From assembly GCA_027295775.1 (NCBI GenBank), contig JAPUKG010000327.1:1-33095 (forward strand): a stretch of 33,095 bases of DNA, given 5' to 3'. Below the pieces are notes generated by a model, which had not been told where the DNA came from, ran no database searches, and saw only the letters and a program-made list of their open reading frames with translations. This DNA is from Pseudomonadota bacterium (GTDB lineage Bacteria > Myxococcota_A > UBA9160 > UBA4427). Both the position numbers and the translations under genes were made by a program. Of the stretch, positions 18,755 through 20,328 are shown one piece after another. The number at the start of each line of letters is the position of its first letter. Position 1 is the first letter of the stretch.

Positions 18755-19768
18755 ATGGGTCGCGGCCCGCGAAAGACGCGATCGACCCGGACGCGATCGA
18801 CCGGGGGAGTCGACCGCAGCCGTGTTCGCACGGTCTCCGCGCGCCGCCGCAAGAGCCTGGTGCGCAGGGCCGACGAGGCCACGCCGCATCGGCCGGGGGA
18901 CGGCGTCGACCGCTTCCTGGCCGGGCTGCCGTCGCTGCTCGGGGCGGGCGAGCTGCGCGCGGCCATCGACGCCTGGAGCGCGGCCTGGGCCGGCGGCCGG
19001 ACGGTCTTGTGGGGGTTCGGCGCCCATCTGATCAAGGTCGGCCTGGCCCCGGTGCTGGTGGACCTGCTGGAGCGCGGCGCCCTCTCGGGACTCATGACCA
19101 ATGGCGCGGGCTGCGTCCACGATCTGGAGCTCGCGCTGATGGGGCGGACCAGCGAGGACGTGGCCTCTAGCCTGGACGACGGCACCTTCGGCATGGCCGG
19201 GGAGACCGCCGAGCGCCTCAACGACGCCATCGCGCGCGGCGCCCGGGACGGCCTGGGGATGGGGGAGTGCATCGGGCGCGAGATCCTGGAGGGCGACTAT
19301 CGCCACGCCGACCGCTCGGTGCTGGCGTCGGCCATCCGTCTGGGGATCCCGGTCACGGTGCACGTGGCCATTGGGACCGACATCCATCACATGCACCCGG
19401 GCGCAGATGGCGCGGCCCTGGGCGCCACGAGCTATCGCGACTTCGAGACCCTGACCGGGCTGGTGGCGACCCTCGAGGGGGGCACGATCTTCAACGTCGG
19501 CTCGGCCGTGATCCTTCCCGAGGTCTTCCTCAAGGCGCTGGCCCTGGCGCGCAACCTGGGGCACAAGGTCGAGCGCTTTACCGCGGTGGACCTGGACTTC
19601 GTGCGCCAATACCGGCCGACGATGAACGTGGTGCAGCGGCCCACCCGGCTCGGCGGCCGTGGCATCTCGCTCATCGGGCACCACGAGATCATGGTCCCGC
19701 TGCTGGCGGCCGGCGTGATCGAAGCGGACGCGGCACGCGGGCGACGCCGGGGAAAGAAGCCCTCGTGA
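18755..19768 (+). CDS. Deoxyhypusine synthase-like (DHS-fold) protein, putative; catalytic Lys motif not evident
   Basis: Segments [45 protein letters not shown] and [28 protein letters not shown]...[40 protein letters not shown] align by eye with remembered DHS segments. Start uncertain. Confidence 0.6.
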
Positions 19769-20328
19769 GCGGGCGAATCGTGCTCGTCGAGGGCGACATC
19801 ACCGAGCAGGCGGTGGACGCGATCGTGAACGCCGCGAACAGCCAGCTCGTGCTCGGTGCAGGGGTGGCCGGCGCGATCCGCGCCAGGGGTGGCCCGAGCA
19901 TCCAGGAGGAGTGCGACGCCATCGGTCCCATCCAGGTGGGCGACGCCGCGGTCACCGGCGCCGGCGATCTGCCCGCGCGCTTCGTGATCCACGCCGCGGG
20001 GATGCCCCCGGGCGGAAGCGCGGACGAGGAGAGCGTGCGCAGCTCGCTGCGGCGCAGCTTCGAGCGGGCGCGGGAGAAGGGCTGCCAGACCGTCGCGGTC
20101 CCCGCCATCGGCGCCGGCATCGGCGGCTTCTCCATGCAGCGCTGTGCCGAGGTCTCGCTCGAGGAGGCGCGCCGCCATCTCGAGGGCGACACGGACACGA
20201 CGCTCACCGAGATCCGCTTCGTGCTGTTCGGCGAGCCGGCCTACCGCATCTTCGAGATGGTCCACGATCAGGCCCGGGTGGTCGCCCAGATGGAGCGCCT
20301 GGAGATGGCGCGCCGCCAGACGCGCTAA
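19765..20328 (+). CDS. Macrodomain (ADP-ribose-binding/hydrolase) protein, Af1521-like
   Basis: GTG start (GTGA overlap); [49 protein letters not shown]...[26 protein letters not shown]...[18 protein letters not shown]. Confidence 0.93.

Follow-up and report, generated by a model that had tools for sequence, protein, structure and literature searches.

HldD, the last enzyme on the way to the heptose of the outer membrane, is a short-chain dehydrogenase that epimerises C6 of ADP-heptose; a nicotinamide cofactor held by the enzyme oxidises the sugar transiently. Deoxyhypusine synthase (DHS) is an NAD-binding enzyme that oxidises a carbon of spermidine, and its lysine carries the aminobutyl group. 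In the SirTM-Macro operons a sirtuin-type protein of the superfamily that also holds DHS is encoded next to a macrodomain; MacroD-type ADP-ribosyl hydrolases have their catalytic Asp in the motif GGGGVDGAI. The gene pair described here, from a window of 33,095 nucleotides (the whole stretch of DNA analysed, contig JAPUKG010000327.1), shares with SirTM-Macro operons the superfamily-level fold and the adjacent macrodomain, but its first protein is of the DHS type rather than a sirtuin, its macrodomain accompanies the family in one order only and is without the MacroD Asp, and its neighbours are LPS-sugar and heme genes. We propose that the family of the first protein very probably belongs to the ADP-heptose branch of LPS synthesis, and that it probably takes the place of HldD there as an NAD-dependent enzyme with a DHS fold, the exact step being deduced from context.

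The first gene (18755..19768, + strand, ATG start) encodes a DHS-fold protein of 337 aa, and the second (19765..20328, + strand, GTG start) encodes a macrodomain protein of 187 aa. The stop of the former and the start of the latter overlap in GTGA (19765..19768, + strand), as a sequence-only reading of this DNA had noticed. Both are real genes, as homologs of the DHS-like ORF are found in 42 out of 61 related genomes and the macrodomain scores 115.6 bits against PF01661 (cut-off 22). The locus is framed by rodA and a HAD-type hydrolase gene (PF12710; 17533-18267) before a divergent thioredoxin gene (PF00085; 18301..18624, - strand), which lies upstream of the DHS-like gene, and by hem genes downstream; this order (rodA, HAD, thioredoxin, DHS-like, hem) is preserved across many genera. 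At the window locus, with its thioredoxin gene upstream, gmhA is missing; in the same genome gmhA is next to hldE on a different contig (C35), and thus GmhA and HldE are both present. No HldD was found in this genome by profile search, and no recognisable copy of GmhB either, so the HAD-type hydrolase in the window is a candidate phosphatase that could matter for heptose synthesis.

The DHS-like protein is a member of the GSU2086 family (NCBIfam NF052581; 390.7 bits over residues 19-319, cut-off 250); the match is full length, with no sequence difference from the family, for which NCBIfam gives no function. The family has so far been known by name alone, and its assignment to heptose synthesis in place of HldD is newly proposed here. 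An AlphaFold2 model based on 91 homologs has a mean pLDDT of 94.5 and a pTM of 0.88, and the best Foldseek matches of this model in the PDB are all DHS (E 3.7e-10, probability 1.00, TM about 0.6, 12-16% identity), so the earlier placement of the protein in the DHS/sirtuin superfamily was right. By sequence the resemblance to DHS is faint: the score is 21.6 bits for Pfam DS (PF01916; cut-off 27) and 17.5 for TIGR00321 (cut-off 304), and a sequence search of solved structures returned marginal matches, to DHS and ArgZ-type proteins only. The fold is therefore common to DHS (PF01916, TIGR00321), to bacterial proteins of the homospermidine synthase type (NF001980) and to the protein in the window, but the latter differs from both in its low identity and scores below the family cut-offs, in the loss of the SWGK lysine and in its sugar-operon setting. 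The HldD model (TIGR02197, cut-off 274.6 bits) gives no match in the DHS-like protein; since the protein has a DHS fold, a fold family different from that of HldD, it can be at most an analog of HldD.

Aligned by profile with DHS-type proteins (probability 97%; reliable for the N-terminal half only), the NGAG..HD motif of the DHS-like protein aligns with TGANLYHD (TGAN..HD) of DHS-family and NF001980-type proteins, and the motif is invariant in 91 homologs, including H122-D123 (19118..19123, + strand). The catalytic lysine of DHS is gone: the C-terminal block that the sequence-only reading had singled out for this loss does read as given there, with neither SWGK nor a lysine in that region, and SWGK is found in none of the 91 aligned homologs, whereas true DHS-type proteins retrieved from the window's phylum retain SWGK or TWGK. 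If one counts back from the shared PLL, the DHS lysine falls on residue 294-295, where R295 (codon 19637..19639, + strand) is Arg in 91 out of 91 homologs; since the profile alignment leaves the C-terminal register unsettled, R295 can be placed only provisionally at or beside the DHS lysine position. The sole invariant lysine of the family, K260 (PEVFLK; codon 19532..19534, + strand; 91/91), is on another helix, away from the position of DHS K329. A polyamine enzyme of the DHS or homospermidine synthase type that uses another lysine would account for the DHS fold, for the weak matches to homospermidine and deoxyhypusine synthase models and for the invariance of K260; but with SWGK missing throughout the family while true DHS-type proteins of the same phylum keep it, and with sugar genes instead of polyamine genes as neighbours, we give this explanation hardly any weight.

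Genomic contexts point to heptose synthesis. A scan of GTDB species genomes yielded 80 loci of the family in many phyla, of which five from the window's own lineage were set aside, leaving 75 outside the window's clade (Desulfobacterota, Planctomycetota, Omnitrophota, Acidobacteriota, Nitrospirota and others). In 66 of these 75, ADP-heptose, Kdo or lipid A genes lie on the same strand within 4-5 kb, typically adjacent: GmhA is encoded in 39 loci, HldE in 24 and LpxK in 16 (the identities of these three were verified at the family level), along with GmhB and KdsA-D. The gmhA gene is mostly within about 200 bases upstream of the family gene, and hldE is mostly directly downstream. In none of the loci scanned was the DHS-like domain fused to GmhA, HldE or a macrodomain; one apparent fusion, a 554-aa frame in locus L119, was rejected, the first part not being GmhA in frame. 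A recurrent arrangement in Desulfobacterales (L105, L110, L121 and other loci) is selA, TPR protein, gmhA, GSU2086 family, hemC and cobA/hemD, and the hem genes that follow both these loci and the window locus represent an old shared synteny.

Within the window's order, gmhA is directly upstream of the DHS-like gene in 16 of the loci examined and the macrodomain gene is directly downstream in 28, so that gmhA, DHS-like and macrodomain genes form a frequent unit. The 4-nt overlap of stop and start recurs in 19 of the 28 (the window included), and hence is not due to chance. The adjacency to the macrodomain, whose conservation the sequence-only reading had left to be checked across genomes, thus holds within this order but was seen at none of the 75 loci outside the clade. 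In a phylogenetic tree the window's clade (support 100/100) groups with a GmhA-linked Desulfobacterales clade through a weak joining branch (87/77), so the link to gmhA looks ancestral. The simplest history starts from a unit of gmhA and the DHS-like gene; in the window's order the macrodomain then joined this unit, and the window's lineage afterwards lost gmhA from it.

These observations bear on the pairing proposed from the sequence alone, in which the DHS-like protein is an NAD-consuming ADP-ribosyl transferase and the macrodomain its eraser. Such a pair would agree with the DHS/sirtuin superfamily fold and with the conserved coupling, but only in the window's order is a macrodomain the neighbour; across phyla the neighbours are instead gmhA, hldE, kds genes and lpxK, and the distribution of the family goes with HldE and against HldD (see below). 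The macrodomain is well matched by its Pfam model and its closest solved relative is TTHA0132 (2dx6, E 3.3e-41), but the position of the MacroD catalytic Asp is taken by Ala35, invariant in 28 copies. An ADP-ribosylation switch is rejected as the role of the family, and we regard the writer-eraser pair as very improbable for the window as well; the NAD dependence that was part of this claim stays plausible. A single order has added the macrodomain to a heptose operon, and the tight coupling there suggests that it works alongside the heptose enzyme; it may, as a guess, bind an ADP-sugar of the heptose pathway, and a role with ADP-ribose is possible for the macrodomain alone. The macrodomain and its same-order relatives also reach past the TTHA0132-like core with a conserved C-terminal stretch (25 protein letters not shown).

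The family is distributed together with HldE and largely apart from HldD. In the 286 genomes of the window's phylum, the GSU2086 family is found in 53 and HldD in 17 (HldD calls are over the cut-off with at least 302 bits, and the next best match has 160), and none has both. HldE (domain II with at least 140 bits, a threshold set in this analysis) is found in 78 of these genomes, and 66 of the 78 carry exactly one of the two, the family or HldD; only four carriers are without a strong HldE, and 204 genomes have neither the family nor HldD nor HldE. Among 138 Desulfobacterota genomes, 131 with HldE, the family is found in 86 and HldD in 34; among 217 Acidobacteriota genomes the figures are 70 and 57. 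The two co-occur in nine Desulfobacterota (21 expected) and three Acidobacteriota genomes (18 expected), which speaks against HldD replacement in so far as the exclusion is not absolute. Because related genomes enter them as if independent, the p-values come out too small (Fisher 4.6e-47 in the window's phylum for the tie between HldE and one of the two; 1.2e-6 in Desulfobacterota and 5e-8 in Acidobacteriota for the low overlap), but all three phyla show the pattern. HldD turned up in one of 50 carrier genomes belonging to several phyla. Both states occur side by side only inside two families (f4 and f8) of the window's order. In Desulfobacterota, 24 genomes (G353, G357, G363 and 21 more) have HldE and neither HldD nor the GSU2086 family; they are either users of D,D-heptose or carriers of yet another epimerase, and they too count against replacement.

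The same data were weighed for another step of the pathway. A protein that replaces, for example, the GmhB phosphatase, or that partners GmhA in a structural or regulatory role, would explain why gmhA is directly adjacent and why GmhB was not found in the window's genome. GmhB, however, is found in 31 out of 41 carriers, more commonly than in non-carriers, so it co-occurs with the family and its replacement is not supported; in addition, an NAD-type fold fits a redox reaction rather than the removal of phosphate, and many loci pair the family with HldE instead of GmhA. We consider a function of this kind improbable.

HldD and the GSU2086 family have nearly exclusive genome distributions and are proposed to hold the same position of one pathway. 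As the fold is that of an NAD-dependent superfamily, features of the NAD site are kept, the lysine is lost, gmhA and hldE are neighbours and HldD is avoided, the DHS-like protein is best read as an NAD-dependent heptose epimerase; the use of NAD, the substrate and the epimerase reaction are what we infer from this. The distribution agrees with an enzyme that, like HldD, would turn ADP-D,D-heptose into ADP-L,D-heptose. The enzyme would convert D-glycero- to L-glycero-D-manno-heptose by an NAD-linked transient oxidation and re-reduction at C6, acting on ADP-heptose (as HldD does) or, earlier, on the heptose phosphate made by GmhA. The DHS lysine may have been lost because no aminobutyl group is covalently transferred, and the invariant arginines could hold the phosphate of the substrate. 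An SDR paralog could be the epimerase in place of the DHS-like protein.

An enzyme of the same pathway that makes another product, such as a differently epimerised or oxidised heptose, in lineages that do not need L,D-heptose in their LPS, would explain the operon setting and the co-occurrence with HldE. It would also accommodate the genomes that have both HldD and the family, as well as a second, divergent group of GSU2086-type paralogs, 40-41% identical, that is tied to its own divergent HldE. But the near-exclusion from HldD in three phyla is most simply explained by replacement, and we take a different product to be unlikely, though deserving of some weight. The paralogs in question (L041:7634-8608, L042:7365-8321 and L043, in genomes G018, G005 and G014) directly follow a divergent HldE-like gene of their own and have an rmlB-like gene beside them, which suggests that this group has a separate heptose or sugar product.

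A published phenotype fits the placement of the family in one pathway with its neighbours. In an electrode Tn-seq study of Geobacter sulfurreducens, GSU2086, described as a 'hypothetical cytoplasmic protein in sugar biosynthesis operon' and encoded between hldE and gmhA, showed the same insertion defect as these two, with a value of -3.2 as compared to -3.1 for GSU2085 (hldE) and -3.7 for GSU2087 (gmhA) (PMC5585712); a polar effect within the operon is also possible. Our literature searches found no paper that links deoxyhypusine synthase with heptose, and no evidence from LPS chemistry of L,D-heptose in a family carrier without HldD.

Genomes in many phyla have ADP-heptose genes but no HldD, which is a gap in the textbook pathway of LPS synthesis. 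The most far-reaching version of our proposal is that the DHS fold was recruited as a sugar epimerase, giving a second, unrelated HldD in many phyla (at the level of the heptose phosphate or of the ADP-sugar), and that the macrodomain of one order recognises ADP-heptose and not ADP-ribose; this combination as a whole we hold to be doubtful. If the family does fill the HldD gap, a widespread uncharacterised protein would gain a function, the DHS/sirtuin fold would gain a sugar reaction, and the annotation of the LPS core would change in Desulfobacterota, Acidobacteriota, Planctomycetota and others.
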